A DNA stretch of 64,000 bases. Source: Halorientalis sp. (GTDB taxonomy: Archaea > Halobacteriota > Halobacteria > Halobacteriales > Haloarculaceae). A program made the translations under genes and the position numbers. Under the pieces are notes generated by a model, which was not told the origin of the DNA, ran no database searches, and saw only the letters and a program-made list of their open reading frames with translations. The stretch lies in NCBI RefSeq assembly GCF_028275115.1, contig NZ_JAQCNH010000083.1, positions 1 through 64,000 of the forward strand. Reading direction: 5' to 3'. Shown piece by piece: positions 46,405 to 63,172 of the stretch; the first letter of the stretch is position 1, and each line of letters begins with the position of its first letter.

Positions 46405-48246
46405 TCACTCGTCGGTCACATGGGGTGAGGACTCGGCCGCGAGCGCGCGGGCTCGCTCCGTGAGCAGCCCCGTGAGGTCGGTATCCTGTGCCGCTGCCCG
46501 TGTCTCGAGCAGCGCCGCGGTCGCGCCGTCGAGTGTGAGGGTGACCTCTCTGTCCTCGTCGGGGAGGTCGAGGGCCACGCGGAGTGCATCCTCGAGGAAC
46601 GCGGCCGGCGACTCGTAGGTTCCATTCGGGCCACACAGCGCCTTGACCAGCGGCTCGTTCGACCCGAAGTCGACCGCGATCGGCGCCGTCTCGTCGGCCG
46701 TTACAGCCGTCGTCGTCGGCTCAATACCGTCGACGGAGCGTTTCAGGTGCGCGGAAACCGCCTCGTCGACGAACGAGTCGCCCTCCTGGGTCGCGAAGGT
46801 GGCGACGGTCGCGTTGATGCTGAGGGTCTCGGCGGGCGCCTCGGCCGTTCGGTCGCGCTCGGTTGCGGAACCGCCGTCGGCTTCCGTCTTCGTGGTGTGT
46901 GTCGCCGACGCGCCGACGTCGGGTACATCGTCCGCCTCGCCCGAACTGTCGGCATCCGTCTCGTCGTGTTCGGTTGCCGCGGCCTGGGCCGCGGTCGCGT
47001 CGACCGGTGTCTCGACCGGACGCCAGCGGTCACCGGCGTCCAGAACCGACGAGACGGCGTCCGGTTCCAGATACGTAATGGGCCCGTCGTCGAGCGTGGC
47101 CGACACCGCGGTCTCGAACTCGTCGGGAGCGGTTCCGAAGACCCCGCCGGTCGTCCCGACGAGGAGGTGCGGCCAGGGTCTGTCGGGCCCCGCGACTTTG
47201 ACGCCGTCCTCGTACCGCGCCCAGATATCGGTCGTCGCGTTCCAGTCTCGGGCGCACTCGGTCACCTCGAACCCGTAGAGGGTCTCATCGAGGCGAACGA
47301 AGACGAGATCTCCAGGATCGACCTGCTTCCACGCCGCCTGCTGGTCGTCCGGGAGCCCCCAGACGTATCCTTCCGAAACGTCGACGTCGCTGATGACTCC
47401 CGCGTCGTCGGTCTGCTGTGTGACCGTCGACGCCGCCGCGTCGCGGGTCGTCCCCCCGTCCGGGACCACGTACAGCACGCCCGGGTCACCCGAGTCGTGG
47501 TTACTCGCCGCTTCGACGAGGTCCGGGAGAAACTCCTTCGCGATGTCGACCCAGTCCGCGTTGTGGTCGCCCACGCCCTGGATGAGGCCGTGGTACGTCT
47601 TGGATTCGAGCAACCGCTCGTTGGCCTCGAAGAACGCCCGCATGACCGTCTCGGGGTCGTGGTCCGCGTCGAGGTAGTAGACCGGTTCGGGGCGGCCACC
47701 GCCGGCGTCGGCGCTCGACCGCCCGGCCCTGATCACGAACTTCCACATCCCGTGCTGGCGGTCGCTCGCGTCGCTCCCGAGCGGCATCTCCGAACTCGGT
47801 GTCGGGCCGTGTTCACGGAGGTGGCGGATGTTCTTCGTGGCCGCACGCTCCGGCGGCGGTTCGACGCCGGCGAAATTGTACTGCCGCGTGGTCGGTTCGA
47901 CGCCCGCTTGTTCCAGCGCGATCACCAGCGAGCCAAACAGCCGTTCGTACGCCGCGGGCCGGTACTCCCCTTCCTCGGCGATTCTGTTTTTCGTCACCGT
48001 GTCCCCGTCCGCAGCCAGTCTGTGGAGGTCGGCGAGCAAATCCGCCCGGTCTGTGTTGGGCGGGGACAGTCCCTCAGCCGCGTCGGCCGCTGCCAGCGCC
48101 TCGTACCAACTCCCGAACGTGTCCACGTACTCCCGGACTCCAGCCGAACACTCCGCCGTCACCGTCTCGATCGATGGGCTACCCGCCACCCCTGCCGCGA
48201 CTGCCCGGAGGTCGTCGACGAGTGTCGCCCGTTCGAAATCGCTCAT
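46405..48246 (-). CDS. HNR-repeat, EVE-like and ribbon-helix-helix-tail protein (defence-type architecture)
   Basis: 613 residues from the ATG at 48246. Residues 5-58 and 68-115 are two HNR (homing-endonuclease-associated) repeats, each ending FGSWYEAL or FGSLVIAL. Residues about 166-250 (MWKFVIRAGR, then PVYYLDADHDPETVMRAFF) form an unassigned module. Residues about 290-400 look like an EVE/PUA-type nucleobase-binding domain: GYVWGLPDDQQAAWKQVDPG, DLVFVRLDETLYGFEVTE. After a Thr/Asp linker, residues 475-605 hold three beta-helix-helix units, the last reading EVTLTLDGATAALLETRAAA. A similar tail ends the divergent helicase at 48361. HNR and EVE domains are frequent in modification-dependent restriction; that role is inferred. 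Confidence 0.7.
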   Translation of the reverse strand: MSDFERATLVDDLRAVAAGVAGSPSIETVTAECSAGVREYVDTFGSWYEALAAADAAEGLSPPNTDRADLLADLHRLAADGDTVTKNRIAEEGEYRPAAYERLFGSLVIALEQAGVEPTTRQYNFAGVEPPPERAATKNIRHLREHGPTPSSEMPLGSDASDRQHGMWKFVIRAGRSSADAGGGRPEPVYYLDADHDPETVMRAFFEANERLLESKTYHGLIQGVGDHNADWVDIAKEFLPDLVEAASNHDSGDPGVLYVVPDGGTTRDAAASTVTQQTDDAGVISDVDVSEGYVWGLPDDQQAAWKQVDPGDLVFVRLDETLYGFEVTECARDWNATTDIWARYEDGVKVAGPDRPWPHLLVGTTGGVFGTAPDEFETAVSATLDDGPITYLEPDAVSSVLDAGDRWRPVETPVDATAAQAAATEHDETDADSSGEADDVPDVGASATHTTKTEADGGSATERDRTAEAPAETLSINATVATFATQEGDSFVDEAVSAHLKRSVDGIEPTTTAVTADETAPIAVDFGSNEPLVKALCGPNGTYESPAAFLEDALRVALDLPDEDREVTLTLDGATAALLETRAAAQDTDLTGLLTERARALAAESSPHVTDE

Positions 48247-48360
48247 GGGCGTGTACAACGACCGTCGGAATGTATCAGTTTCCCTCAACGACGGGATGGG
48301 GAAAGTTATTATCGTGCGTTACGTTGTCAAATACAGTTCACACGTCAGTGGGAAGTACGA
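48247..48360. promoter_or_regulatory. Divergent promoter region between the HNR/EVE gene and the helicase gene
   Basis: 114 bases. A GTCAAATACAG element at about 48327-48337 sits 24-34 bases before the helicase ATG. AAGTTATTATC near 48302 is a second AT-rich element. Divergent transcription from one short region suggests joint control. Confidence 0.45.
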
Positions 48361-51300
48361 ATGCCGGGAAACGATCCGCTTCAGGCGAAAACCGACGACA
48401 CCACACCGGCGGCACAGTTCGAGAACGACCGTCTCGACCGTGACGGGATAGAGCCGACGCAGTATCCGGCGCAGGTCGACCGGGCCGCGCTCGACCTCTG
48501 TCGCGGAATCGCCGTCGGGCAGACCGACGACCACCGTGACATCGGCGGAACAATCAGCAGTTGGAACTTCAAAGAGGCGACCGGCGAGTTCTACGTCGAT
48601 GGCCTCCAGGCGATCGCCGGCGAGGATTCGGGGCTGGCCGGGACGCTCGCAGACTACGACCCGGCGACGATCGGCGACCTCGCCTATCAACTCAACGCGC
48701 TCCGGCACACGCTCGGAACCGACGACGGCGCGATGGACATCGACCGGGCGCTGGAAGCGATCACCGAGAAGACCGCCGCGGCGGCGATCGAGGAGTCCGT
48801 CAAAACCGGCGGCGAAGCGGGGGCTGGGCTTCGCTCGCTCCGGGGGACCGACTCCGTCGGAGAACTCACGGCACGGCTGTTCTCCGACCCACGTGTCGAC
48901 GCCTACGCCCAGGCGCTCATCGACCGGCTGCCGGGGTCGCGGGCGAGCCGGGCCGACCTTGTCGAGCAGCTCGACGCACCCCGGATGACGACGCCGCTGT
49001 GGACCCACCAGCGGGAGGCGCTCGCACGGTGGCAGGACAACGGCCAGTTCGGCTACGTCGACATGGCGACTGCGACCGGCAAGACCGTCCTCGGGCTCGC
49101 GGCGCTGTCGCTCCGGTACGACACCCTCCACCCGACCGACCGGGCGGCGCTCGACGTGCCAACCGAGGGGGCGGACTCGACACCGGACGTCCCGTCCGAC
49201 CCACGGGTGCTCATCGTCGCCGGGACCGACCTCATCCTCGACCAGTGGCGCACCCAGTTCGACGAGCACCTCGACATCCCCACGACACGGACTCGACCCA
49301 CGGGCGACGACGAGCGAACCATCGAGCTCTCCTGGGGGACGGTCGAGTTCCGGACGGCTCAGGGGCTGTTGGACGTGACTTGGTTCGACGACTACGACCT
49401 CGTCGTCCTGGACGAGGCGCACCGGTACACGCGGTCGAAACGCGGCGGGCGCGGCTGGGGCGACCTGTTCGAGTCACTGACCGACGGCGCGAACGCGGTC
49501 CTGGCCATGTCCGGCTCCATCGACGACGGCTGGGTGGGGGACCCGGACGCCAAGGACGCCCTCGACGACGTTCTGCCCCGCTGTTATCGGTACGACGTGG
49601 CACAGGCCCGCCAGGATGGCGTCATCGCGGACTTCTCCTGGACGGTCCGCTACCTCCCGGCGACCGGTGACCGGGTCGACCGCGTCGCCAGTCAGACCCG
49701 CATCACCACCGCCGGCTACGACGCCGCGACCGGCCGTCTCGACGCCGACGCGCTGGGTGTCGACGCCGACACACTCCCCGCGGACGTCGTCGATTACGAC
49801 GACCTCCGGTCGCTCGTCCAGTCGAACGACGGCGGGGACCTGCGGAGCCGCTCCAGCGCGTTCGACGCGTTCGCCTCGGCGTTGCTCGCCCGGAAACCCC
49901 TCCGCTGGAACACTACCCCGGACGACGACGCGATCGCCGACCTCGTCGCCGAGCACGCACCGGCAGAGAAGACCGTCGTACTGGTCCGTTCCTACAAGGG
50001 TGCACGACGTTTGGGTGACCGACTGGTCTCACGCCACGGTATGGCCGAAGCGGACCTGTTCGTGTTCGACGACAGCGACGCGGACCGCCTCGGGACCGTC
50101 GAGCGGTTCAACGCGGCCGACCACGGTGTCATCATCGGTCCGGGGGACCTCCTCGGAACCGGAGTAGACATGCCAGACGCCGAGGTCGCGGTGAACGTCT
50201 CTCGTGGCGGCGTGAACGCCTCGCTCGTCCAGCGGATCGGCCGTATCCTGCGGAACCCCTCCGGCGAGAAGACGGCCGAGTTCCACCACCTCATCGCACA
50301 GCCGACCGAGCCCGACGCGATCGATTTCGTCGACGACGGTGCCAAACTGCTCGAGCGGGCGGCCTCGTTCCGTGCCCTCGGGAAGACATTCCGTGAGGCG
50401 CCGCTGTTTCGCGCCCACCCGGAGACCGACACAGTACTCGCCGATCTTGAGGACGGCGGCGTTGAACTGCTCGAACGGGTCGAGGACGAACGCCTGCTGG
50501 TCGACACAGAGGCGGCACACGAACACCTCCGGTCGTTGCAGGCCCACATCTACGATACGCAGGTGGCCCACGACGCGGACGAACCACGCACGACACCGGC
50601 GCTGACGGACTGGACGAGCGCCGGGGCGGCCGCGGACGCCGACGACGAGCGACTGTATCCCGAACGCAACGACGCGTACGAGCAGTACCGCCTGACGCTG
50701 AGCCCATACCGCGCGTGCAAAGCGGTCGCGACGAACCTGTACGACGCCGAGGTGGACATCGAGGAGGCCGACGACGGGTATCGTGTCGCCGTGGACGACG
50801 AACGACTATCCGACACGGAGTTACACGCCGAGTTGAGATACTGGCTGAACGCGTACCGGAACTGGCGCGAGCGGTGTGACAACCGCGACGGGAGCGGCGA
50901 ACCGGGGTCGCTCCCGCAGTACCGGAGCGAGTGGCCCGAGCCGCCGGACGGCGAGGCCGTGATGCTCCCCCGGGAGGTCGTCGCCGAGATCGGCGTTTCC
51001 TACGCCGAAGCCGACCCGATCTTCCTGCCCGTCGAGGACGGCGAGCCTTACGCCCTCCCGCTCCCGGACGGTCGGTACCTGACTGTCGATGGAATCGTCG
51101 ACGAGCCCCAGCCCGAAGACGACAGGTCGGCCGCCGACCCGGCCACCACCGACGAGACGGCAGACGACGGTGGCTCGGCCGCCACAGGGGCCGAGGCAGC
51201 GACCGAGACTGACGCCACCGCCGGGCAGCCGGCCGTCACCGTCAATAGTCTCCTGCTCACCGCCGCCGAAGCCAGGGACGAGCCGCTCGCGGACGTCGTG

Positions 51301-51639
51301 ACGGACGCGGTCGCGGCGCTCCTGAAGACGGCCGTCGACGACGACGTGCAGCTCGCCGACCGGGCCGACGACCAGCCACGCGAGGTCCTGGACGTCGAAC
51401 TCTCCGACCACCACGAGCGGTTACTCGGCGCGCTCGTGGACGAGACGCCCGGCGCAACCGTCGGGCACGCGGTCGACGTCGCGCTCCAGCGGGCCCTGGC
51501 CGGCAACGCTACCACCGCAGTCGAACTCGACGGCGCCGTCGCGGCAGCGCTTTCGGCACGGTTCGACGACGACGACGCTGCGAGTGCCTTCGTGGGCGAC
51601 GCCGTCGCGGCGGCACTTCGAGGTGGCGACGGGCAGTGA
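48361..51639 (+). CDS. Superfamily 2 DNA/RNA helicase with ribbon-helix-helix-like tail
   Basis: 1092 residues from the ATG at 48361; in-frame open sequence further upstream overlaps the divergent gene and is a shadow. Helicase lobe 1: THQREALARWQ, motif I MATATGKTVLGLAAL (about 235-249), VLIVAGTDLILDQW, DEAH at 351-354, and SGS at the motif III place. Lobe 2: VVLVRSYKGARRLGDRLV, IIGPGDLLGTGVDMPDAEVA, and motif VI QRIGRILRNPSGEKTAEF. The architecture resembles type III restriction or XPB-like SF2 enzymes. The N-terminal 210 residues and the region after 700 have no family I know. After a Thr/Ala/Asp linker the last 135 residues hold three beta-helix-helix units like the divergent HNR/EVE protein. 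Confidence 0.82.
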   Translation: MPGNDPLQAKTDDTTPAAQFENDRLDRDGIEPTQYPAQVDRAALDLCRGIAVGQTDDHRDIGGTISSWNFKEATGEFYVDGLQAIAGEDSGLAGTLADYDPATIGDLAYQLNALRHTLGTDDGAMDIDRALEAITEKTAAAAIEESVKTGGEAGAGLRSLRGTDSVGELTARLFSDPRVDAYAQALIDRLPGSRASRADLVEQLDAPRMTTPLWTHQREALARWQDNGQFGYVDMATATGKTVLGLAALSLRYDTLHPTDRAALDVPTEGADSTPDVPSDPRVLIVAGTDLILDQWRTQFDEHLDIPTTRTRPTGDDERTIELSWGTVEFRTAQGLLDVTWFDDYDLVVLDEAHRYTRSKRGGRGWGDLFESLTDGANAVLAMSGSIDDGWVGDPDAKDALDDVLPRCYRYDVAQARQDGVIADFSWTVRYLPATGDRVDRVASQTRITTAGYDAATGRLDADALGVDADTLPADVVDYDDLRSLVQSNDGGDLRSRSSAFDAFASALLARKPLRWNTTPDDDAIADLVAEHAPAEKTVVLVRSYKGARRLGDRLVSRHGMAEADLFVFDDSDADRLGTVERFNAADHGVIIGPGDLLGTGVDMPDAEVAVNVSRGGVNASLVQRIGRILRNPSGEKTAEFHHLIAQPTEPDAIDFVDDGAKLLERAASFRALGKTFREAPLFRAHPETDTVLADLEDGGVELLERVEDERLLVDTEAAHEHLRSLQAHIYDTQVAHDADEPRTTPALTDWTSAGAAADADDERLYPERNDAYEQYRLTLSPYRACKAVATNLYDAEVDIEEADDGYRVAVDDERLSDTELHAELRYWLNAYRNWRERCDNRDGSGEPGSLPQYRSEWPEPPDGEAVMLPREVVAEIGVSYAEADPIFLPVEDGEPYALPLPDGRYLTVDGIVDEPQPEDDRSAADPATTDETADDGGSAATGAEAATETDATAGQPAVTVNSLLLTAAEARDEPLADVVTDAVAALLKTAVDDDVQLADRADDQPREVLDVELSDHHERLLGALVDETPGATVGHAVDVALQRALAGNATTAVELDGAVAAALSARFDDDDAASAFVGDAVAAALRGGDGQ

Positions 51640-51697: not shown

Positions 51698-51715
51698 CCC
51701 ACTCACGGAACAACG

Positions 51716-54700
51716 GTGAACGGGACTCGTACGCTTCTGGCCGGCCCCTCCGGGGACGCGGTCACACGCCGGGCGTTCACACGGGCGACCGAACTCGCGG
51801 GGGCGGAGCCGGACAGCGTGCTCTGCCTGACGGAATCGCGGGAGGACACTGAGCGGCTCGGACGGCAGTGGCGCGACGAGTACGACCCGCTCCGCTTCAG
51901 GTGTGCCACCCTCGACGACTTCGTGTCCGATTGTTTCGAGCGGGCGACTGGCCGATTGGCGACGGCGACGCTCTCGCGTGCGGCACGCTCGCGACTGGTC
52001 GAGGCGGCGCTCGAAATCCACGGCGACCGGGCGAGCAACGGGCCGTTCGTCGGCATCGAGCAGCCGGCGAACGCGCTCGTCGATCAGATGCGCGGCCTGT
52101 TCTCCCTGCTCGAGTACGCCGGCTACGACACGCCCGACGCCATCGCACACGCCCTCCGGACGGCGGGCACCGACGGCAGCGACGACCTCGTCTCCGACGC
52201 ACTCTATGGCTCCTTCCAGTCGGTTCTTCCGACGCGGGCCGAGAGCCCGCTCGACGAACAGGCGACCGTCGTCTCGGATGTCTACGACGCGTACAGGACG
52301 CTCGCGGCGAACCTCTACCCCGACACCGGGACTGTCGCCGAGCAGTACCTCCACCTGCTGCGGAACGACGCGCTTCTGGCGGCGGTGCCCGACGCGGTCG
52401 ACGTGGTCGTGCTTCACGGGCTGACGCGGCTCGCCCCGGCCGAGCGTGAAGCCGTCGCCCGACTCGCGGAGGCCAATCCCACACTCGGTGCCGTCGCGGC
52501 GACGCATCCGTCACTGGACGCGACGGGACTCGACGCCGGCGTCGAGTCCACCTTCGAGCTCTACGACGCACTGGACTTCGAGCTGGAGTATCGGACACCA
52601 GAGACGACGAACGACCGACGGCTGAGCGTCGCCCGGGCGATGTACGCACCCGAGCAACCGGCTGAGGACCTGCCCTCGCCCGCAGAACTCGGACTTTCGA
52701 TCACGACGGCGAGTACCGAGCGAGCGGAGGTCCGGTTGGTCGCTCGGCAGGTGCGTTCCCGCCTAGCCGCCGGGGTCGCGCCGGCGGACATCGGGGTCGT
52801 TGTGACGGACCGGGCCAGTTACCGTGGCCCGCTCGCCGAGGTGCTGTCGGGGTACGACGTCCCGTTCACGTTTCACAACGAGGTCGGGATCGAGGGGACG
52901 GTCGTCGGCGCGACCGCAGGGACGCTCCTGGCCCTCGTCGACGAACCGACCCCGTCGCTGCTCGGTGACCTCTGTACGAACGGCCTCGTCTCGTTCGACG
53001 ACACAGCTATCGAGCCCGCGACCGTCCGCCGGGCGGTCGCGGCAACCGAACGAGCGTCGGTCGACGCACTCGTAGAGACCCTCAACGAGATGGACGAACC
53101 GGCCGTCGCGGCCGGGATTACGGACCTACTAAACCATCTCGAACCGACGGCAGACTCGGTCACGGCGGTGACGGACACCCTGACGGGGGCGCTCGACCTC
53201 CTGTCCGTCCCCGAAACCGTCGAGCAGTACGGGGACGACGACGCGACTGGCTCACACCGACCGGCCTACGAGCGCTCGGCACTCCGGGCGGTCGAACGCA
53301 TTCTGTCGTCGTTCGATGGCGTCAGCCAGCATCTGTCGACCGTGGACCCGGTGGCGCGGGTCCGGCAGGCACTGCTCGCCGAACTGGTGGGTGGCCCCCG
53401 TCGACGGCCCGGGTACGTCGACGTCCGCCCGCTCGCGGAGGCCGCTACGACCGCGTATGACCATCTGTTCGTCCTCGGGCTAACCATGGATTCGTTCCCG
53501 GAGGAGTCCGACCGGATGCGGTTTTTCGCCGCTGTGAACGAGGCCGACGAGGAGTTCGGCCGCGCCCACACTGGGCGCCGAGCCCGGTACGTTCTCGGGA
53601 CGCTTCTGACTGGCTCGGACCACGTGACCCTCTCGCGGCCACGACACACCGTCGACGGGACCGACCACGTGCCTGCGCCGGTGCTCTCCGAACTCGAGCG
53701 GTACGTCTCGGCGGACAGGGAGCCGACTCCGACACCGCCCGACAGGACGGCAGAAGACTGTCAGCGGACCTACGCGGCGTGGGCTCGCGGCGAAGCGTTC
53801 GACACCGCCGACCGGGCGACGGCGCCGCTCGCCGCCGCCGACTGGTTCCCCGCGTCCGGACGGCAGTTCGCGGTCCAGGGTGCCCGGTGTGCGTGGCGTC
53901 GCTCCCAGCCCGACCTGACGCCACACGACGCACAGATCGGGGAGATCATCGACGAGGTCTTTCCGGCCGACCGTCGCGAGCCGTACAGCCCCAGCGCTGT
54001 CGAGGAGTACGCCCGCTGTCCGTTTCTTTTCATGTCAAAGCGAATCCTGGGGTTCGAGGAGGACTACGGGAGCGCGAACGGGGTCTCCTACGCCGACCGC
54101 GGCACCTACGTCCACGACGTCCTGGCCGTGTTCTACCGGCGCCTGCGAGAGGCCGCCGACACGCCCGTCAGGATCGAGACCGTCGACCGCCAACGCGCCG
54201 AGGCGCTCCTGCTCGACGTCGCGCTCGACCGACTCGACGAACTCGGCGCCGCGGACACGCCGTTCGCCGGCCGGGAAGTCGGGCAGTTGCTCGGCGGGCT
54301 CGGCGACCCCGACGCGAATCCCTACCACGAGTTCGGCGGCCAGGCGTCCACCGGGCTGTTCGCGAGCATCCTCGATGCGGAGTACGAGGACCAGCCCGGT
54401 GTCGGGACACAGCCCACCTACCTCGAGGGGTCGATGGGGCTCGACTTCGACGACGTCGAACTGCTCTCGGCGGACCCGGTCGAGATCGACACGCCCGCCG
54501 GTCCGGTCCCGCTCCACGGCGTCGCCGACCGCGTGGACGTCGCGACCGGGACGGGCACGCCCCGCGAGTTCCACGTCCGTGACTACAAGACCGGGCGGGC
54601 ACCGGGACGGCGCGACGTGGTGCGGGGTACGAAACTGCAGTTGCCACTGTACGGGCTGGCGCTCGAAACGGCGTTGTCGGACGGAACTGGCGTGGCCCAC

Positions 54701-55138
54701 GAGGTGGTGGGCGGGTCATACTACGCGCTCGGCGACCCGGCGGATATCGACCCGAGGAGCGGGCTGGTTGCCGCCAGGGCGGACGTCGAGGACGGAGCAC
54801 TGCTCCCGGCGGTGTCGGCGCCGTGGCTGTTGCCGTTCGAGGAGCGGTCGGGGTTCCGGTCGTTCGTTCGGGCGGTCACACCGGTCCGGCTCGGGCAGAT
54901 TGCGACCGCGGTCGAGGGAGGGGCGTTCGAGCCGACGCTGCTGCCCGCGTCACAGGCCGGCTGCGACCACTGCTCGTTCCGGGCGGTCTGTGACGTGCGT
55001 CACCACCACCGCCGGGACACGATCAGCCGGCTCGACTGGAGCGAGCACTACGTCTCCGAGCGGGCGACCGACGACGACCTGGACCTCAGTGAGTACCGGA
55101 TGGACGACGGTGCGGCGGGCCAGGAGGCGGAGGACTGA
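51716..55138 (+). CDS. AddB-like PD-(D/E)XK nuclease subunit with iron-sulfur cysteines
   Basis: 1140 residues from a GTG at 51716. The N-terminal two thirds have the inactivated-helicase look of AddB/RexB: the Walker A place reads LLAGPSGDAVTRRAF, lacking Gly-Lys-Thr, while RFRCATLDDFVSD, VVLHGLTRLAPAEREAV and HLFVLGLTMDSFPEESDRMR are typical. The C-terminal nuclease has YSPSAVEEYARCPFLFMSKR (first cluster Cys about 766), GTYVHDVLAVFYRRL, the catalytic strand FHVRDYKTGRAPG (Asp and Lys near 955) and CDHCSFRAVC near 1082, giving the four-Cys iron-sulfur staple. It overlaps the AddA-like gene by one base, so the two form a double-strand-end helicase-nuclease. Confidence 0.82.
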   Translation: MNGTRTLLAGPSGDAVTRRAFTRATELAGAEPDSVLCLTESREDTERLGRQWRDEYDPLRFRCATLDDFVSDCFERATGRLATATLSRAARSRLVEAALEIHGDRASNGPFVGIEQPANALVDQMRGLFSLLEYAGYDTPDAIAHALRTAGTDGSDDLVSDALYGSFQSVLPTRAESPLDEQATVVSDVYDAYRTLAANLYPDTGTVAEQYLHLLRNDALLAAVPDAVDVVVLHGLTRLAPAEREAVARLAEANPTLGAVAATHPSLDATGLDAGVESTFELYDALDFELEYRTPETTNDRRLSVARAMYAPEQPAEDLPSPAELGLSITTASTERAEVRLVARQVRSRLAAGVAPADIGVVVTDRASYRGPLAEVLSGYDVPFTFHNEVGIEGTVVGATAGTLLALVDEPTPSLLGDLCTNGLVSFDDTAIEPATVRRAVAATERASVDALVETLNEMDEPAVAAGITDLLNHLEPTADSVTAVTDTLTGALDLLSVPETVEQYGDDDATGSHRPAYERSALRAVERILSSFDGVSQHLSTVDPVARVRQALLAELVGGPRRRPGYVDVRPLAEAATTAYDHLFVLGLTMDSFPEESDRMRFFAAVNEADEEFGRAHTGRRARYVLGTLLTGSDHVTLSRPRHTVDGTDHVPAPVLSELERYVSADREPTPTPPDRTAEDCQRTYAAWARGEAFDTADRATAPLAAADWFPASGRQFAVQGARCAWRRSQPDLTPHDAQIGEIIDEVFPADRREPYSPSAVEEYARCPFLFMSKRILGFEEDYGSANGVSYADRGTYVHDVLAVFYRRLREAADTPVRIETVDRQRAEALLLDVALDRLDELGAADTPFAGREVGQLLGGLGDPDANPYHEFGGQASTGLFASILDAEYEDQPGVGTQPTYLEGSMGLDFDDVELLSADPVEIDTPAGPVPLHGVADRVDVATGTGTPREFHVRDYKTGRAPGRRDVVRGTKLQLPLYGLALETALSDGTGVAHEVVGGSYYALGDPADIDPRSGLVAARADVEDGALLPAVSAPWLLPFEERSGFRSFVRAVTPVRLGQIATAVEGGAFEPTLLPASQAGCDHCSFRAVCDVRHHHRRDTISRLDWSEHYVSERATDDDLDLSEYRMDDGAAGQEAED

Positions 55139-58100
55139 TGGTCTCGTTCGAGCACCTCGAGGCCGCGCAGCGGCGCGCCGTCGAGGCCCACGACCGCAAC
55201 TACGCGGTGACGGCCGGCGCCGGAAGCGGGAAGACGACCACCTTCACCTCCCGGTACATGACGCTGCTCCGGGAGACCGATGCCACACCGGCGTCGGTCG
55301 CGGCCATCACCTTCACCGAGAGCGGCGCCCGGGAACTCAGAGAGCGCGTCAGAGAGGGAGTCCGCGACCGGTTGCGAACGACCGACGGCGAGTCTCGCCG
55401 CGAGTGGCAGACCTACCACGAGGCGCTCCCGGAGTCGTACATCCACACCATCCACGGGTTCTGTGCGCGGCTCCTGCGCGAGCACGCGCTCCGGGCCGAC
55501 GTCCCGGTCGGCTTCGACGTCATCGAGGAGACCGCCGCCCGCGGCTACCAGCGAGAGGTCGTCGAGTCGTTCGTCGAGGCACACCTCGACGACGAGCGAC
55601 TCGACGCGGTGACGGTCGTCTACGGCCGTGAGCGGCTCGAAGAACTGCTCGGGGACCTGCTGGCCGACCACCACCGGGCGCGGGAGTGGGCCGACGCCTG
55701 GGCCGACCGGTCGCCCGCCGAGTATCTCTCGTACGTCCGCTCGGAGTACGCGACGGTCGACGTCGACGAGGCACGGCGCTGTCTGGACGCCGAGGGCGTC
55801 GCGGCGGCCGTCGCGGACATCGAACGGGTGGCCGCGGCCGAATCCGCAGGCCGCGAGCGAATCACCATCGCGCAGAACGTCGCCGAGGTGGCGGCGACAC
55901 ACGAGTTCGCCCCGGACGAGATGGACGACATCGAGGTGCACGACGCCGTCGCGGCGCTGTGTGAGGCGCTGACCAGTGACGGGACCGCCTACCGTGGCGG
56001 GTTCGACGTCTGGTCGTACACCGGCCACGACGACTGGACGGCGGCGAACGCCGACCGGTACGAGACTGCGACGGACGTCGTCGCCGAGGCGATGCCCGTC
56101 GAGGCGTGGGCGACCGCCGACCGGCTCGGCGTCGACCGGAACGCCGCACGGGCGTACACGGCGCTGGCGGCACTCTACCGGGACCTCCACGAGCGATATC
56201 AGGCGCGGAAACGCCGGGAGGCAGTCCTCGACTTCGATGACCTCATCGACGGGGCCGTCACGCTACTGTCCACCACGCCCGCGGTCCGGGCGCAGGTGCG
56301 TGACTCGTTTGACTACGTGATGCTCGACGAGGTGCAGGACACGGACCCGCGCCAGTGGCGGCTCGTGCGGTTGTTGACCTCCGCCGAGAACGACTACGAC
56401 GGGCAGAACGTGTTCGTCGTCGGCGACGAGAAACAGAGCATCTTCCGGTTCCGGGGAGCCGACGTGGCACAGTTCCGGCGCGAACGCGAGCGGCTGTCGG
56501 CCGCCAACGTCGACCGCCCGCCGGCCGACCCCGACCGCGACCGCGAGACCGGCGGTGACGGCAGTCTAGCCCGGAACTTCCGGTCGCTCCCGGCGGTCCT
56601 CGACCCGATCAACGACCTGTTCGAGCACCTCTTCGGCGCGGTACCCGCCGAGTACCGGGACGTGCCGACGGGCGTGACGGCGGACACGAGTTTCGAGCCG
56701 GTCGCACAGTCCCTCGCGGCGAACCGGACCGACGGGGCCGACGTCAGTACTGGCGTGACGGGCGTGTTCGTGCCCGAGGAGAAGGCAGCCAGGAGCCGCC
56801 TGTTCGACGGCCCCAATCGGCTCTCGGAGACGCCCGAGACACGGAGTATCCTCGGGGCGGAGACGCTGGCCGCCGAGGTCGCGGCACTGCTCGACGGGGA
56901 GACGGAGCGGTACGAGACGGTCGGCTTCGAGGACGCGGTGCCAGTCGAGGAGGCGACGGCGGTCGAGCCCGCCGACGTCGCAGTCCTGCTCCGGAACCGC
57001 AACGACCTCGACGAGTACGAGCGCGCCCTCTCGAAGTACGAGGTGCCCTACACCGTCGCGTCGGGTATCGGGTTCTACGACCGGACCGAAGTAGTCGCTC
57101 TCCGCAACCTCTTTCGGGTCCTGCTGGATCCGACCGCGGACCTGGCGCTGTTCGGCGTCCTGCGGTCGCCGCTGTTCGGGTTCGACGACCCGACGGTCGT
57201 CGGCTGCTGGGCAGCTCTCGACACCAGCGAGGTCGGCGACGGGGCGCTGTGGCGGGCGCTCGGCCGGACCGACGACGAGGGGCTCGCCGCAGCCAGGGCG
57301 TCGGTCGAGCGGTGGCGACGGCTCGCGGGTATCGACGGCGGGGACGCCGTCGTCGAGACCTGGGACGCGTTACTCGGTCGAATCGTCGACGAGACGGGCT
57401 ATCTCGCGAGTCTCGCCGTCGACGAGCGAGGCCGGCAGGCGGTCGCCAACGTCGAGAAGTTCCGCGACCGGCTCCGGGAGTGGAACGAGGACGGCGTGCA
57501 GACGCTCTCGGCGCTAGTCGACCGGATCGAGCGTGCAGCAGAGCTGTCCGCTCGCGAGGGCGACGCCGAGGTGCCCGCAGAGGCCGACGGTGTCCGGCTG
57601 CTGACCGTCCACGACGCAAAAGGGCTGGAGTTCCCCGTCGTGTTCGTTCCAGGGCTCGCCCAGTCGTTCACGCTCCGGTCCGGCTACGGGGACGGCGCCG
57701 CCGAGTTCGAGCAACTCGCGGACGGTGCGGACGGCGAGCGAACGCCGTTGCTAGGCATCGACGGCCCCAGCGTCGGGGAGGCATTCGACCGCGCGGACAC
57801 GGTACTGAAACGCCGGCTGACGTTCGCTCGCGAGCGTGAGGCCGTCGCCGAGGAGAAACGCATCCTCTACGTCGCCATGACACGGGCACGCGACCACCTC
57901 TTCCTCGTCGGCGTCACGTCCGCCGACGACGACGGTAACCCGGTGAGCGTCGAGCAGGACGACGCCGAGGACCCCTCCAGCTGGCTCGATTTCGTCGGCC
58001 CCGCGCTCTTCGACGAGGAGACGGTCGACGCCTTCGCGGCTGACGGGAGGGCGACGGTCACCGGTCCGTCCGGGACGCCAGTCACCGTCCGGGCCCCCCG

Positions 58101-58926
58101 GACGGCGAGGCCGCTCACGACCGGGAGCGAAACCGAGCCGCCTGCTCTCTCCGAAGCGGGCGACGGGTGGGAGCCGGCGACGGAGTACAGCGTGGCCGCG
58201 TCGTACGTCGGGTCGCTGGTCGCAGACGGCGCGCCCGGTGAGGTGTACACCGACCACACCGGACGGTACGTCTCCTACGCCCCGCCCGACGAACCCGCCG
58301 GCGAGGAACCGGGAGCAGAGGACGACGACACGACAGCGGCGTCAACGATGGACGAGAGCGCGGAGCCGGCGTGGCTCCCGCGGAACGTGTTCGGCGACGC
58401 TCTGCACAAGGCGACGGAACTGAGCATCGACGCGGGAGACACCGAGCGGCTCCGGACCCTCCTGGCGCAGTTCGCGAGGGGCCACGACGTGGCACCGGAC
58501 CGCGTGAGCGCCGACGACGTGGCTGAACTGCGCCGTCACCGGCGCGTCGCTCGGGAGTTTCTCGCCGGTCTCGACGGTACGACGGCCGCGGAACGACCGG
58601 TCAGGGCGCGCCTCGACGGTGGCGAGGTGTACGGCGACATCGACCACCTCGCGGTGACGCCCGACACGTATCACATCGTCGACTTCAAGACGAACGTCGT
58701 CGACGACCCAGACGAGATTCCGGCGAAAGCCAGCAGTTACAACTGGCAGTTGCGGGCCTACGCCGTCGGCCTCCACCAGAGCGACCCCGACCGGGACGTG
58801 CGGGCGACACTGTTGTTCACCGACGCGGACGAGACGTGGGCAACGGAGTGGGCCGCCGACGAACTCGACTTCGAGGCCGAGCGCCTCGATTCGGCGATCC
58901 GGTCGTCGCTCGACGCCGCGAAGTGA
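55138..58926 (+). CDS. AddA-like UvrD-family helicase-nuclease
   Basis: 1262 residues; ATG shares one base with the preceding TGA. SF1A motifs: I TAGAGSGKTTTFTSRY (about 25-40), Ia ITFTESGARELRERVREG, HTIHGFCARLLREHA, II YVMLDEVQDTDPRQW (about 391-405), III/IV VVGDEKQSIFRFRGAD, ARNFRSLPAVL, V TVHDAKGLEFPVVFVPG (about 822), VI ILYVAMTRARDHLFLVG (about 908). The C-terminal RecB-type nuclease has LHKATEL, then GDIDHLAVTPDTYHIVDFKT (catalytic Asp, Asp and Lys about 1167-1185) and NWQLRAYAVGL. With AddB it is expected to resect or degrade DNA ends in recombination or defence. Confidence 0.87.
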   Translation: MVSFEHLEAAQRRAVEAHDRNYAVTAGAGSGKTTTFTSRYMTLLRETDATPASVAAITFTESGARELRERVREGVRDRLRTTDGESRREWQTYHEALPESYIHTIHGFCARLLREHALRADVPVGFDVIEETAARGYQREVVESFVEAHLDDERLDAVTVVYGRERLEELLGDLLADHHRAREWADAWADRSPAEYLSYVRSEYATVDVDEARRCLDAEGVAAAVADIERVAAAESAGRERITIAQNVAEVAATHEFAPDEMDDIEVHDAVAALCEALTSDGTAYRGGFDVWSYTGHDDWTAANADRYETATDVVAEAMPVEAWATADRLGVDRNAARAYTALAALYRDLHERYQARKRREAVLDFDDLIDGAVTLLSTTPAVRAQVRDSFDYVMLDEVQDTDPRQWRLVRLLTSAENDYDGQNVFVVGDEKQSIFRFRGADVAQFRRERERLSAANVDRPPADPDRDRETGGDGSLARNFRSLPAVLDPINDLFEHLFGAVPAEYRDVPTGVTADTSFEPVAQSLAANRTDGADVSTGVTGVFVPEEKAARSRLFDGPNRLSETPETRSILGAETLAAEVAALLDGETERYETVGFEDAVPVEEATAVEPADVAVLLRNRNDLDEYERALSKYEVPYTVASGIGFYDRTEVVALRNLFRVLLDPTADLALFGVLRSPLFGFDDPTVVGCWAALDTSEVGDGALWRALGRTDDEGLAAARASVERWRRLAGIDGGDAVVETWDALLGRIVDETGYLASLAVDERGRQAVANVEKFRDRLREWNEDGVQTLSALVDRIERAAELSAREGDAEVPAEADGVRLLTVHDAKGLEFPVVFVPGLAQSFTLRSGYGDGAAEFEQLADGADGERTPLLGIDGPSVGEAFDRADTVLKRRLTFAREREAVAEEKRILYVAMTRARDHLFLVGVTSADDDGNPVSVEQDDAEDPSSWLDFVGPALFDEETVDAFAADGRATVTGPSGTPVTVRAPRTARPLTTGSETEPPALSEAGDGWEPATEYSVAASYVGSLVADGAPGEVYTDHTGRYVSYAPPDEPAGEEPGAEDDDTTAASTMDESAEPAWLPRNVFGDALHKATELSIDAGDTERLRTLLAQFARGHDVAPDRVSADDVAELRRHRRVAREFLAGLDGTTAAERPVRARLDGGEVYGDIDHLAVTPDTYHIVDFKTNVVDDPDEIPAKASSYNWQLRAYAVGLHQSDPDRDVRATLLFTDADETWATEWAADELDFEAERLDSAIRSSLDAAK

Positions 58927-58933
58927 CGGGGAC

Positions 58934-61480
58934 TCACGAGGGCTCGGCCGCGTCCAGGCTCCCGAGTATCTTCTCGGCGGTCGCGGACCCGATGCCGTCG
59001 ACGTGTGTCAGGCCGTCGGCATCGACCCGCCTGAGGTCCGCTTTGGTCTGGACGCCGGCCCGCCGCAGGTCGAGGTCGGTCTGTGGCCCGATCCCATCGA
59101 GTTCGTACAGGGCCGGGTCGTCGCCGGGTGCCGGGCGCCGGTCGAGCAGCTCGGCCGTCTCGGGGTCGAACGGGGAGTCCGCTGTCGCCCGATAGAGTTC
59201 CTCGAACACGACGGCTGTCGCGAGGAAATGCAGGTCCGACAGGTCGTGTTCGGTCGCGGTCGCCTCCGTCGGGACGCGGGCGACCGCTCTCGGGTGGACA
59301 TCGGCGTTGTAGTAGAGGACGAACGGCGTGTCCTCGACCGGGTCGTCGAACAGGTGCTTGGTGACCAGACGGGTGAGGCTCGGCTTATCGCCCGCCGCTC
59401 GGACCCAGCGCGCGACCGCCATCGCATCGCCCTCGGCGTGCCCCAGCGTTACACAGCCGGCGTACAACCGGATGCAGTTCAGGAAGTTCGCGTAGTGTGA
59501 GTTGTCGGCAGCGACGTCCGCGCGTTGTTCCCAGAGCGGTTCGATAACGCGAGCGGCGGCCTCGTACTCCCGGTTGATGAGCAGCATATAGGCACACGCC
59601 TGGCGCGTCCAGATGTCGGCCCCGAGTCGTTTGGGAAGCACGTCGGCCTCCAGCGGAGTGTACGCGACGACGCCGCGTTCCGGACGGCGGCGTGGCAGGG
59701 CCGCGAGGGCGTCCTCGGCCCGGTCGCGGCCCGTCTCGGGGTGGTCGGTCGCGGTCTCGATACGCACTAACCGCTCCGCGGTGTCGACGAACGCCGACAA
59801 GTCGTCCTCGTCTCCGCTCAGGCCTGCGTCGGCGACGACCGGGCGAAGCCGGTCGTACTCGGCTTCGAGGTGTGGTCTGGCCCGCTCGCGCTGCGGTGTA
59901 GGGTACCGACGGATCGGCTGGTCGACGCCCTCCGTGGGCGGGTCCTCGTCGACGAGCCCGGTGTAAATGAAGTTCACGTACTCCTGTCTGACCCGGGGGC
60001 GTTCCTCGGCCGGGAGGTGGTCGATCGCACGCTCGTAGGCGTCCGCCGCGGCGCTGGGGTTAGCGTCGTGGCGCTCCAGGCCGGCCTGTCGCAACCAGAG
60101 GACCGGTGCCTCGGGGCGCTCGTCCAGTGCCGCCTCGAGCGTCGCTCGCACGTCGTCCCAGCGGTCGGCCCTGCGGTACAAGGCCGCGAGTTCGACGGCC
60201 GCTTCGACGTGGCCGGGCGCGAGTTCGACGGCCCGTTTCAGGGCCGCGAGTGCCGCCTCGTGGTCGTCCCGGCCGGCACGCAGGCGGCCGCGGCCGACGA
60301 GCGCCTCGACGCAGTCGCTGTCGCGGTCCAGTGCCGTCTCGAACTTCGCTGCCGCCTCGTCCGGGTGGTCGGTCGCGGCCAGTGCCCGTCCCCAGACGGC
60401 GTAGTCGATGGCCGTCAGCGACTGCGGCGTGTCGGCGGTCGCGACCGACCGGAGGGTGTCCAGGGCCGTGGCGGGTTCACCGAGTTCGAGCAGGCGGTGT
60501 GCGTACTCGACGAGCAGGTCGGGGTCGAGACCCCACTCCTGGTCATCGGTTCGCCCGAACAGCCCGTCGGTGGCGGTCAGCAGCGGCCGGCCCTGCTCGA
60601 GGGCCTCGCTCCCGTGCCCGTGGGCGAGTGCGACGACGGAGCGATACCCCCGGGCGACCGGGTGGGGCGACGCCGCCGACTCGATGACGGCGTCCAGTTC
60701 CGCGGCGGCGTCGTCGAGACGCCCCTCTGCCAGCAGGTACCGCGCGTAGAGCGTCCGCAACACGTGGTCGGCAGCGCCTGGTTCGCGAACCCAGTCGAAC
60801 AGGTCGTCCAGGCGCGGCCCGACCGGGTCGTCGTCCCACCGCCGGGCGTACGTCGTGATACGCTCCTCGGCGGGCGCGACGAGGGGAGCCGTCCGGCCCT
60901 CCCGCTCGGCGGCGTCGGTCGTGGGCGACCGCCGTGTCGGCGGCGGGCCACCGGCCACGTGCTCGACGTATCGCAGGCGGACGGCGACCTCGTATGGAAG
61001 CGTGACGCGCCACGCCCACCGCTCGTCGACGGTGACCGTCGTCGTCCCATCCGGAAGCGCGTCCGGGAGCCCCCGCTCCATCCACCCCTTGACCGCAGCG
61101 GCGTTCGGTGTCACGGTGTCCCCGAGCGTCCCGACTGCGTCGGGCTCCGGGACAATACAGGGCCCGTCGGTCGCAAGGACGACGGCGTCGGTCGCCGCCT
61201 GCGGCGTCGGCTCGCGGTCGAGCCAGCCGTCGTCGGCCAGACGGTCCACGGCCGCGGCGGCCTCCTCACGCGTTCCGTCCCACCGGAACACGGACCGTGC
61301 GAGCCCCGTCAGCACCGCCATGGACGGCGTCAGCACGAGCTGGTGACAGACCGCGAGCGCGTCGCGAAACACGGCCTCGCTGGAGTTTGCGTCGCCGCCC
61401 CCGTGCTGGCTCTCGTGACCGCCGTCCGCGCGGCAGCGAGTCGTCGAGTCCCCTGCGGCGGAGTCCCCGTCGTTCGGCAT
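58934..61480 (-). CDS. Winged-helix, TPR and tandem helix-hairpin-helix protein
   Basis: 848 residues from the ATG at 61480. Residues about 40-95 look like a winged helix (VLTGLARSVFRWDGTREEAA, DDGWLDRE). Residues about 230-480 contain several TPR-type helix pairs, e.g. LYARYLLAEGRLDDAAAELD, ALAATDHPDEAAAKFETALD and LVGRGRLRAGRDDHEAALAA. The middle to 780 is mostly helical. The last 50 residues are two helix-hairpin-helix units: YELDGIGPQTDLDLRRAG and THVDGIGSATAEKILGSL, a DNA-backbone-binding module. It is convergent with the AddA-like gene (8 bases between stops), suggesting a DNA-linked scaffold. No named family is recognised. Confidence 0.72.
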   Translation of the reverse strand: MPNDGDSAAGDSTTRCRADGGHESQHGGGDANSSEAVFRDALAVCHQLVLTPSMAVLTGLARSVFRWDGTREEAAAAVDRLADDGWLDREPTPQAATDAVVLATDGPCIVPEPDAVGTLGDTVTPNAAAVKGWMERGLPDALPDGTTTVTVDERWAWRVTLPYEVAVRLRYVEHVAGGPPPTRRSPTTDAAEREGRTAPLVAPAEERITTYARRWDDDPVGPRLDDLFDWVREPGAADHVLRTLYARYLLAEGRLDDAAAELDAVIESAASPHPVARGYRSVVALAHGHGSEALEQGRPLLTATDGLFGRTDDQEWGLDPDLLVEYAHRLLELGEPATALDTLRSVATADTPQSLTAIDYAVWGRALAATDHPDEAAAKFETALDRDSDCVEALVGRGRLRAGRDDHEAALAALKRAVELAPGHVEAAVELAALYRRADRWDDVRATLEAALDERPEAPVLWLRQAGLERHDANPSAAADAYERAIDHLPAEERPRVRQEYVNFIYTGLVDEDPPTEGVDQPIRRYPTPQRERARPHLEAEYDRLRPVVADAGLSGDEDDLSAFVDTAERLVRIETATDHPETGRDRAEDALAALPRRRPERGVVAYTPLEADVLPKRLGADIWTRQACAYMLLINREYEAAARVIEPLWEQRADVAADNSHYANFLNCIRLYAGCVTLGHAEGDAMAVARWVRAAGDKPSLTRLVTKHLFDDPVEDTPFVLYYNADVHPRAVARVPTEATATEHDLSDLHFLATAVVFEELYRATADSPFDPETAELLDRRPAPGDDPALYELDGIGPQTDLDLRRAGVQTKADLRRVDADGLTHVDGIGSATAEKILGSLDAAEPS

Positions 61481-61606
61481 CAAGACAACAACCGGGCCGG
61501 ACCGTCTAAGGGATTATGTCTGCCGCCGTCGGCCGCCGCGGGTTCACGGACTCGACGGCAGTTCCAGACGCTTGGCCGGTAGAGCGGCGTCACGAGGCAG
61601 CCGCTC

Positions 61607-63172
61607 TCAACACACGAGTAGGTACAGCCAGTAGGGCAGGCGCAGGATACCGTCGTCGACGACCGTGACCGGCTCGTCGCCACGGCCTGTCTCGCCGACG
61701 AGCAGGAACCCGAGCGGCGTCTCGTACTCGTCTACGAACTCGCGGACCGCCTCGCGTCGGTCGCCGGCCCGACTGGGTCGGTAGCCGAGGCCGACCGGTA
61801 CCGGCGTGTCACCGACCTCGAACACGAAGTCGACCTCGCCGTCGCGGCCACGCCAGTACTGGATGGGCGGGTCCCAGGAGCGGCCCTGCTGAGCGGCGAC
61901 GTTGTACGCCAGGCGCATGGTGTGGTCGAACGCCGCGATGCGTGCGAGGTCCGCCTCGCGGTCGAAATCGTTGCGAACCGCGGCCGCATCACCGCCGGTC
62001 AGGGCCGTCACCAGCCCGGTATCCTGCAGATAGAGCCGAACGGCTCGCGGCCGGCTGTTGTCGTACTCCGTGACCCCGTTTAGCAGGTACAGCTCCGCGA
62101 GCGCGGGGAGATAGCTGTCCGCGATGGTCCGGCGGTCGACGTCGAGCAGTTCGACGAGGTCCTGATACCGGATGGGGTCGGCGCCGCGGTTCCGGGCGGC
62201 GATGGCACAGAGTCGCTCGAGGTCGGCGAGCGTCTGGATGGACTCGAAGCCGGGGACCTCCTGGTAGAGGGCGTCGCGCACGTCGTCACGCAGACGGTCG
62301 TATGCGCCGGCAGGGAGGTCGGTTGTAGTGGCGACGGCGCCGTTCTGGTCGTAGCTGATGATACCACCCATCGCGAGGTACTCGACGACCTGTGACCGGA
62401 GCCAGTCGGCCACGTCGGCAATCTGTTCGTACTTCCCGCGCAGTTCCGCGACGAGCGGCGCGACGTCGCCAGTTTCGAGCGCCCGGGGGATGCTCCCGTC
62501 GCCGGTTCGGAGCGACGTGGGACTGACTCGGCGGTCGTCGCGTTCGAGCGCGGGGCGCAACGCGAACACGTAGTCACGGAACTTCTCCGGGAGGGTCGGC
62601 TGGGTGTCGTAGGCGTCCGCCGGGAGCGGGCCGTCCGCGAGGGGACGCTCGATCTGGATGTCGGCGCTGGCTGTGGCCAGGACGTGCCGGTCGGCGTCGT
62701 CGGCGTAGAGGTCGGCGACCGGCCGTTCCCAGCCGTCGGTCGAGGGCTTGTTCGGGTGTCCGACGTGGTGAACGTCGTCGAGTACGACGAACTGCGGCCG
62801 GTCGGTGTCGATACGACCGAGAATGCGGGTCTCGTAGTAGCGCACTGCACGTCGGAGCTGTGCCGCCGACTGGAGCTGATACAGCGGGTCGGCGTCGAAC
62901 GGGAGATAGAGGAACAGTTCCGGTGGGTCGCCCGCCTCGATCCGATGGCGGATGAACTCGTGGACGAGCGTCGTTTTGCCCGCGCCCCGGCGGCCGGTGA
63001 GGGCGAGGAGGAACTGCTCTTCGACCTGGCTCCCGGTCGCGTCCGGACGTGCCAGGTGGTAGAAATCGCTTTTCTGTCGGGCAGGGAGGTCGAAGGCGTC
63101 GACGCCGACCTCCCACCACGGATTGTGTTCGTGGAGGTCCCGAAGCAACGCCTCGTCTGGCTCGATATCCAT
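61607..63172 (-). CDS. AAA ATPase with DUF4143-like C-terminal domain
   Basis: 521 residues from the ATG at 63172 (an in-frame GTG lies just before); an AT-rich CATTATG element is about 30 bases upstream. Walker A is LLALTGRRGAGKTTLVHEF (about 56-74), Walker B PQFVVLDDVHHVGHP. A winged-helix-like region (about 280-370) follows, and then the DUF4143-type end: YLQDTGLVTALTGG, ARIAAFDHTMRLAYN, GRDGEVDFVFEVGD. In related proteins this last strand is followed by an E-x-K on a nuclease-like fold; here the place reads PVPVGLGYRPSR, so the Lys is missing. Such ATPases are common in archaea and their role is unclear; here they are next to DNA-processing genes. Confidence 0.78.
   Translation of the reverse strand: MDIEPDEALLRDLHEHNPWWEVGVDAFDLPARQKSDFYHLARPDATGSQVEEQFLLALTGRRGAGKTTLVHEFIRHRIEAGDPPELFLYLPFDADPLYQLQSAAQLRRAVRYYETRILGRIDTDRPQFVVLDDVHHVGHPNKPSTDGWERPVADLYADDADRHVLATASADIQIERPLADGPLPADAYDTQPTLPEKFRDYVFALRPALERDDRRVSPTSLRTGDGSIPRALETGDVAPLVAELRGKYEQIADVADWLRSQVVEYLAMGGIISYDQNGAVATTTDLPAGAYDRLRDDVRDALYQEVPGFESIQTLADLERLCAIAARNRGADPIRYQDLVELLDVDRRTIADSYLPALAELYLLNGVTEYDNSRPRAVRLYLQDTGLVTALTGGDAAAVRNDFDREADLARIAAFDHTMRLAYNVAAQQGRSWDPPIQYWRGRDGEVDFVFEVGDTPVPVGLGYRPSRAGDRREAVREFVDEYETPLGFLLVGETGRGDEPVTVVDDGILRLPYWLYLLVC

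Follow-up and report, generated by a model that had tools for sequence, protein, structure and literature searches.

The divergently transcribed genes at positions 46405 to 51639 of the window, the whole 64,000-nucleotide stretch of Halorientalis sp. DNA analysed here (assembly GCF_028275115.1, contig NZ_JAQCNH010000083.1), encode the HNR protein, which combines HNH repeats with a candidate reader of modified bases, and a superfamily 2 (SF2) helicase, and both products terminate in the same tail of three ribbon-helix-helix (RHH)-like units. As judged from sequence profiles, this shared tail is real, and the common C-terminal module suspected in an initial annotation of the locus is thereby confirmed. 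In other haloarchaea the tail is repeatedly found on a second protein close to a tailed helicase, and the front of the HNR protein occurs with either a tail or a C-terminal HNH nuclease domain. We propose, with a probability of roughly 0.6, that the pair belongs to a split, modification-dependent restriction machine whose parts are joined by the shared adaptor tail. The two genes and their parts are arranged as follows.

46405–48246, minus strand: HNR protein, 613 aa; two HNH_repeat units, conserved middle domain, EVE-like domain (putative), linker, three-unit RHH-like tail
47899–48231, minus strand: the two HNH_repeat (homing-endonuclease-associated) units of the HNR protein, aa 6–55 and 67–116
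47461–47865, minus strand: middle domain of the HNR protein, approximately aa 128–262; better conserved than any other part, with 65% identity in the ortholog of genome G265, and also present as small stand-alone proteins
47011–47478, minus strand: EVE-like domain of the HNR protein, approximately aa 257–412; candidate modified-base reader
46420–46842, minus strand: C-terminal tail of the HNR protein, aa 469–609; three beta-alpha-alpha (RHH-like) units
48247–48360, no strand: divergent intergenic region, 114 bp between the two ATG codons
48361–51639, plus strand: SF2 helicase, 1092 aa; ResIII and Helicase_C (Pfam)
51217–51624, plus strand: C-terminal tail of the helicase, aa 953–1088; three RHH-like units, homologous to the HNR tail

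The divergent placement of the genes and the Thr/Ala/Asp linker preceding each tail agree with the initial annotation, the low-complexity linkers of both proteins being rich in Glu as well. The HNR gene starts at the ATG at 48246, the mechanical open reading frame (ORF) extending upstream to 48288. Pfam detects the two HNH_repeat units (5.7e-13), and no nuclease domain is among its matches to the HNR protein. In the helicase, the motifs ATATGKT (aa 236–242), DEAH (aa 351–354) and QRIGR (aa 624–628) can be read from the sequence.

Homology and fold of the shared tail

As a bare pair, the two window tails are aligned by BLASTP at E = 0.021, and 3 of 2000 shuffles attain the observed Smith-Waterman score. 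This evidence is modest and the pair by itself was therefore unconvincing, so that the tails of relatives were gathered. With a hidden Markov model (HMM) built from six helicase tails, the HNR tail of the window scores 1.3e-7 and the remaining four partner tails lie between 1.7e-7 and 1.8e-4, and no non-tail among 399 C-termini from the same loci does better than 0.41. In the reverse direction, with an HMM of four partner tails, the tail of the window helicase reaches only 0.017, yet this is better than the best background at 0.41. With a smaller HMM of three helicase tails, the HNR tail comes first among untrained tails (9e-6), but some true tails are missed, since the partner tail of locus L083 (1.4) and the helicase tail of locus L098 (1.8) fall below background.

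Profile-profile comparison, a check that the initial annotation had suggested, relates two HNR tails to three or eight helicase tails with 95.8% or 97.6% probability (E 7e-9 or 3e-12), a first run without controls having given 96.7% and 98.2%. Among the controls, 60 column shuffles each gave at most 1.04%, the reversed profile gave 0.2%, and none of 120 single background C-termini exceeded 7.0%; the single window helicase tail scores 65.5% in this test. Moreover, at E ≤ 1 the tail profile matches solely the HNR protein and the helicase within their own genome, which is 91.9% complete. Pfam applied to ten bare tails yields no RHH match for either window tail, and one of the ten, a homologous tail unit from Haloferax, lies above the RHH_1 cut-off (26.1 vs 20.5 bits, 8e-6). 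A PDB sequence search with the tail profile returned none below E 0.25, with CopG/antitoxin entries among its seven matches.

AlphaFold2 models of both tails show one and the same plan, E-H-H, E-H-H, H-H (pLDDT 72.2 and 70.6, pTM 0.48 and 0.47 for the HNR and helicase tails), rather than the unrelated folds that the initial annotation had named as an argument against kinship. Its three strand-helix-helix units are recovered in part: units 1 and 2 of both models have the form typical of the RHH (MetJ/Arc) superfamily, while unit 3 has its two helices and a strand that is left unassigned in both monomer models. The alternating hydrophobic pattern of the third strand segment is preserved, by eye, in the tail alignment, and this strand may await a strand from a partner. 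Foldseek places chains of the F-plasmid relaxosome, which presumably include TraY (the output gives the entry name only), at the top of both lists (best E 0.30 for the HNR and 0.083 for the helicase tail). DndE chains appear in both lists and CopG and CdbA chains in that of the HNR tail, none of these matches being significant.

Occurrence of the tail at helicase loci

Across 392 genomes of the order, the tail was detected at E ≤ 1e-6 in 24, with 33 matches in total. Seven of these are helicases (genomes G000, which holds the window, G126, G382, G320, G265, G207 and G203), and in the first five a second tailed protein lies within 14 kb of the tailed helicase. The helicase of G207 has no such companion, and for that of G203 the contig, at 5.5 kb, is too short for a verdict. 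The five cases comprise three independent arrangements, for which a rough chance estimate, assuming 3.5 Mb per genome, amounts to 5e-9. When the window is considered together with the named loci, a second tail accompanies four of the eight tailed helicases (the window, L081, L082, L083, L096, L098, L099 and L100), L100 lying on a short contig.

The pair itself recurs at locus L182 of G265, a genome from a different genus within the family, where a 614-aa HNR ortholog with the same domain order is divergent to a tailed helicase. The ortholog is 46% identical over aa 3–604: besides the middle domain, identity amounts to 45% in the HNH repeats, 41% in the EVE-like domain and 45% in the tail vs 18% in the linker, and the tail is therefore conserved like a folded domain. 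In this genome, which comprises few contigs, the helicase of the locus (L182:10952-14224) is broken into three frames, owing to decay or to sequence error; decay next to an intact reader would, if true, be of interest. The neighbourhood survey proposed in the initial annotation thus finds that the association recurs; the exact pair was found again in G265, with a broken helicase, and the partners vary elsewhere.

In the window, the helicase is followed on its own strand by two genes that recur in some of these other loci, and further neighbours lie beyond them:

51704–55138, plus strand: AddB-like PD-(D/E)XK protein, 1144 aa when read from the start codon that we selected; next gene on the helicase strand
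55138–58926, plus strand: AddA-like UvrD helicase with PD-(D/E)XK C-terminus, 1262 aa; overlaps the stop of the AddB-like gene
61607–63175, minus strand: AAA/DUF4143 ATPase; relatives lie close to loci of tailed proteins, in Haloferax among others; uncertain member of the system
63505–64000, continuing to contig position 65664, plus strand: vWA protein, divergent from the DUF4143 ATPase; belonging to the system uncertain

The genes beside the helicase form a pair of UvrD helicase and PD-(D/E)XK partner, as in AddAB, and, as their scores fall under the NCBIfam equivalog cut-offs, they are called AddA- and AddB-like only. Of 195 genomes, 37 gave an AddB match at E ≤ 1e-10. The gene that separates the AddA-like gene from the DUF4143 ATPase (58934–61483, minus strand) encodes a TPR protein with a C-terminal HhH_5 domain; at related loci, helicases and their partners repeatedly end in HhH. 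The DUF4143 ATPase, the vWA protein and the HEAT protein that follows it (61607–64000, on to contig position 66083; L147) look like a conflict system of their own, which recurs in other haloarchaea, often with an ADP-ribosylglycohydrolase and sometimes with AddAB. As this cluster occurs without the helicase at many of the cluster loci examined, it was rejected as the core of the system and graded as merely associated.

Other partners take the place of the HNR protein in further relatives. In Halorubrum lipolyticum, a tailed helicase that is 47% identical to that of the window (aa 15–1087 matched) stands in a row with a tail-only protein of 158 aa and a tailed HNH-repeat protein, whose middle appears LAGLIDADG-like by eye. 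Haloferax marisrubri and H. marinum have a helicase-AddB-AddA operon divergent to a tailed TFIIB-like protein, and four tailed proteins, including one of 572 aa and a metallo-beta-lactamase protein, are assembled in 21 kb in H. marisrubri. In Natronocalculus, the helicase (44–45% identical) and its divergent neighbour both have matches to CarboxypepD_reg and HHH_5, those of the neighbour lying under the Pfam cut-offs, and not the RHH-like tail; their sequences suggest another kind of common end on both proteins. Strict tail matching of all partners is ruled out by Haloprofundus (L098) and Natronorubrum (L066, weak RHH match 0.0035), where an RHH-like helicase tail is accompanied by an HhH-bearing neighbour.

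About ten different front ends were found to bear the tail, several of them named by eye. Tailed metallo-beta-lactamase proteins (L113-L116, L118, L122, L133, L174-L176), which we take to be of the beta-CASP type, adjoin DUF4143 ATPases in L139, L144 and L188. A BRCT-like domain precedes the tail in L108, L109, L111 and L183, with no second tail in the flanks examined; Pfam confirms BRCT for L134, which is the locus of L108, and for L183. Tailed proteins of 452 aa (L184:9680-11038) and 459 aa (L185:8970-10349) contain Cys/His clusters that appear zinc-finger-like by eye, and Pfam finds no match in the former.

The named relatives of the helicase all stem from halophilic archaea, and HNH_repeat units accompany many of the helicases. 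With duplicates between collections counted once, such units occur at 23 of 35 helicase loci, fused in-frame in 15 and encoded by a separate gene in the flank in 8, the 12 loci without them including short or broken ones. Likewise, HNH_repeat is fused to the helicase or lies less than 10 kb away in five of the seven genomes with a helicase at E < 1e-40. By our own count there are about 51 HNH_repeat ORFs in 59 genomes, and the chance estimate for the association is 3e-10, with kinship ignored and 172 Mb as the total, which a later sum puts at about 168. HNH repeats and helicase thus belong together. A second HNH_repeat ORF of the own genome is located at G000:C131:6840-6995.

Several relatives of the helicase are giant proteins of about 2600–3400 aa that open with the SF2 helicase and two HNH repeats (L063-L065, L087, L089, L091-L094, L101, L104), those of L090 and L095 being devoid of the repeats; in both giants tested by Pfam the body comprises DUF4011, AAA_11/12 and REase_MTES_1575. 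Other relatives adjoin TGT-like (L062) or QueC- and FolE-like (L068) genes, named by eye, or a DpdJ-like gene (L098, by PADLOC), hinting at 7-deazaguanine DNA modification islands. The association with HNH repeats, the fusion to an Hhe/PDC-S37 body (see below) and the Dpd-like neighbours therefore point to DNA-targeting immunity. The helicase profile gave 24 pattern matches on the viral contigs searched, none of which was confirmed.

Readers with a nuclease or a tail

A search of the 392 genomes with the HNR protein yielded 11 genomes at E ≤ 1e-15, namely its own, G265, six with the middle domain only, and three (G200, G349 and G387) with relatives of 585–599 aa, in which HNH repeats, middle domain and EVE-like domain are followed by a C-terminal HNH nuclease domain. 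HNH_2 lies above its cut-off in all three, and the nuclease of G349, the sole one compared with solved structures, matches TagI (5.9e-6) and EcoKMcrA (0.014). Neither a helicase of the family nor an RHH tail was found in the 20 kb examined in these three genomes. Set against the tailed pair, the nuclease-ended relatives therefore indicate that the reader occurs either with a nuclease in cis, or with a tail and a tailed helicase in trans. The simplest reading is that the enzyme exists as a restriction endonuclease in one piece and as a version coupled through the tail, which recruits a matching helicase, with AddAB-like genes adjoining. This alternative, like the AddB/AddA-like neighbours and the presence of the tail on many other proteins, is absent from the initial annotation.

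In a further haloarchaeal locus (L080), an EVE-like region and an HNH domain are combined in a protein encoded next to an AAA protein and a member of the McrBC family; the nuclease of this combined protein likewise matches TagI and EcoKMcrA. Proteins of about 130–200 aa homologous to the middle domain of the HNR protein alone are found in L002, L003, L004, L006, G207, G225 and G266, and a stand-alone middle-domain protein of L077 bears a Cys/His cluster.

Residues 257–412 of the HNR protein are likely, though not proven, to be EVE-like, as the structural matches are weak but consistent. A 3-row profile of the region matches PDB entries at E 0.0014–0.012 and a 7-row profile at E 0.041–0.27, in both cases solely entries of McrB from T. 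gammatolerans (6p0f, 6ut5) and of PH1033, which we take to be EVE-domain proteins; the region as a single sequence gives no PDB match. TagI and EcoKMcrA both require modified DNA. The recognition of modified bases suggested in the initial annotation is accordingly better supported by the HNH-ended relatives, the one tested of which matches these two enzymes, than by the EVE matches, and it is plausible from sequence comparison that the HNR protein reads such bases.

Proposed mechanism, alternatives and known systems

In the proposed machine, the HNR protein would act as the specificity subunit, its two HNH repeats and middle domain touching DNA and its EVE-like domain reading a modified base. 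The three RHH-like units would replace the C-terminal HNH nuclease of relatives with the same front, an exchange that may have proceeded from nuclease to tail. The tails would pair by beta-ribbons, strands 1 and 2 within the chain and the third strand with the third strand of the partner, and through this pairing the DNA-bound reader would recruit the translocating SF2 helicase. Subsequently, the AddA/AddB-like helicase-nuclease would degrade the opened DNA, conceivably for an antiviral purpose.

Alternatively, the tail could be a DNA-binding domain whose three RHH units dock each protein independently on DNA, without protein contact, as in classical RHH regulators, TraY or DndE. RHH is classically a DNA-binding fold, and the Foldseek lists of both tails include relaxosome and DndE chains, that of the HNR tail also CopG and CdbA chains, all without significance. 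The excerpted text of PMC10853773 describes DndE as two tandem RHH units. On the other hand, the basic strand residues by which members of the MetJ/Arc superfamily contact DNA are scarce in the tails: Lys or Arg occurs in none of the six strand segments of the window and in 11 of 66 from 22 tails, a set that includes near-duplicates (5, 2 and 4 of 22 in strands 1, 2 and 3). In contrast, four small stand-alone RHH proteins examined, three of which have identical first 20 residues, have Lys at the strand position in each. The initial annotation had offered co-assembly or a common DNA-docking domain; owing to this scarcity, docking is the less likely role and protein pairing is favoured. The different paired ends of the Natronocalculus helicase and its neighbour speak against docking as well, though HhH can bind DNA too. 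Altogether, independent docking is rather unlikely.

Still less probable is that the HNR protein controls transcription of the helicase-AddAB operon, with HNH repeats, middle domain and RHH tail binding the 114-bp promoter and the shared tail being a leftover of domain shuffling. The divergent layout and the TFIIB-like partner in Haloferax would suit such a regulator, but the tails on helicase, metallo-beta-lactamase and BRCT proteins as well as the HNH-nuclease versions of the reader would be left unexplained. Chance likeness of acidic, alanine-rich haloarchaeal C-termini, which the bare pair might have allowed (E = 0.021, 3 of 2000 shuffles), is hardly credible and is ruled out by the HMM and profile-profile tests with their background, shuffle and reversal controls, by the confinement of matches in the own genome to the two proteins, and by the 45% identity of the ortholog's tail.

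Several observations, beside the DNA-binding habit of the RHH fold, weigh against the restriction machine proposed here. The co-location count is not independent, because four of the five paired loci (G000, G126, G382 and G320) contributed rows to the profile, G265 being the untrained case, and the helicase-only HMM is a cleaner test. Tailed helicases in L096, L098 and L099 have no second tail in the flanks examined; in 19 of the 24 genomes that pass E ≤ 1e-6 for the tail, the locus shows no second one; and tails on BRCT, zinc-finger-like, metallo-beta-lactamase and 572-aa proteins were found with no helicase in the flanks examined. Some true tails score low as single sequences, that of the Haloquadratum helicase (L096), which had been sampled as part of the background, reaching 1.2% in the profile-profile test. 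Co-evolution of paired tails was sought in a tail tree, which is poorly resolved and in which paired tails are not sisters. For the reader, TRAP comes first and PH1033 second (0.33) when a 4-row profile with emphasis on the window family is used. Finally, no AddA- or AddB-like gene is present in the G265 or Halorubrum flanks examined, and AddAB as an obligatory part was rejected on this ground.

Among known systems, HNH restriction endonucleases of the TagI/EcoKMcrA type (type IV) resemble the three relatives in which the reader is fused to an HNH nuclease. They differ from the window protein, which has no Pfam nuclease and ends in the RHH-like tail, its locus providing only the neighbouring AddB/AddA-like PD-(D/E)XK genes, with the enzymes as separate proteins. 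McrB with its EVE-like N-terminal domain is the best PDB match of the reader (0.0014 with the 3-row, 0.041 with the 7-row profile), and the EVE-like and HNH protein of L080 adjoins an AAA/McrBC pair; the window, however, contains an SF2 helicase instead of the McrB AAA+ motor, and no McrC was found among the locus proteins scanned. PbeA is the nearest PADLOC family of the window helicase (1.6e-18). According to the excerpt of PMC10853773, PbeA unites an SF2 helicase and an HKD nuclease in one protein, and its system also includes a CxC ABC-ATPase and DndE. In comparison with PbeA as described there, the window helicase has no Pfam match to an HKD (PLD) nuclease, and neither the CxC ABC-ATPase nor DndE is among the seven locus proteins scanned. 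Giant relatives of the helicase run through two HNH repeats into a body like that of Hhe/PDC-S37 (one by PADLOC, two by Pfam), but they are single polypeptides, and no giant is among the tail-profile matches better than E 0.1. DndE and F-plasmid TraY share with the tail the tandem RHH units per chain, DndE and relaxosome chains appearing in both Foldseek lists, whereas the window tail comprises three units on multidomain proteins. The double RHH of DndE is the nearest fold precedent in immunity in the part of PMC10853773 consulted.

The nearest published idea to the tail appears, by analogy, to be the principle of effector-associated domains (EADs), which the excerpt of PMC8195603 presents as small non-catalytic domains on several proteins of a system and on diverse effectors, with homotypic contacts proposed. 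The tail, likewise a single small module, is shared by several proteins within a locus and occurs with diverse effectors. Compared with these EADs, the fold differs, the term RHH being absent from the text of PMC8195603, and the tail joins nucleic-acid readers, motors and nucleases in archaea. Some helicase relatives with DpdJ-like neighbours may belong to the BRIGADE systems of halophilic archaea, which are YprA/Dpd hybrids according to the available portion of PMC12458937. In line with the initial annotation, which knew of no system with this pairing, no description of the tail or of the HNR-helicase pair was found in open-licence literature among the matches listed, mostly titles and abstract starts, and PMC7641849 held no match to the terms sought. 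The adaptor layer would therefore be a seemingly undescribed addition to known modification-dependent restriction.

A wider reading is put forward tentatively, at somewhat short of even odds: the three-unit RHH-like tail may be a general haloarchaeal plug by which any tailed reader (EVE-like, HNH repeats, BRCT, TFIIB-like, zinc finger) or effector (SF2 helicase, metallo-beta-lactamase nuclease) joins the same machine. Single-chain, modification-dependent endonucleases would then have become machines of several subunits by exchanging nuclease for plug, and some loci would have swapped the plug on both partners simultaneously, from RHH to Ig-like and HhH. If true, one-protein restriction enzymes and modular complexes would be interconvertible, with a catalytic domain swapped for an adaptor and the motor recruited in trans. 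Archaeal immunity would gain a homotypic adaptor code akin to the effector-associated domains of bacteria, and the plug would constitute a nucleic-acid counterpart of adaptors in the style of death domains. In addition, the tail could act as a search handle for haloarchaeal defence genes yet undiscovered.

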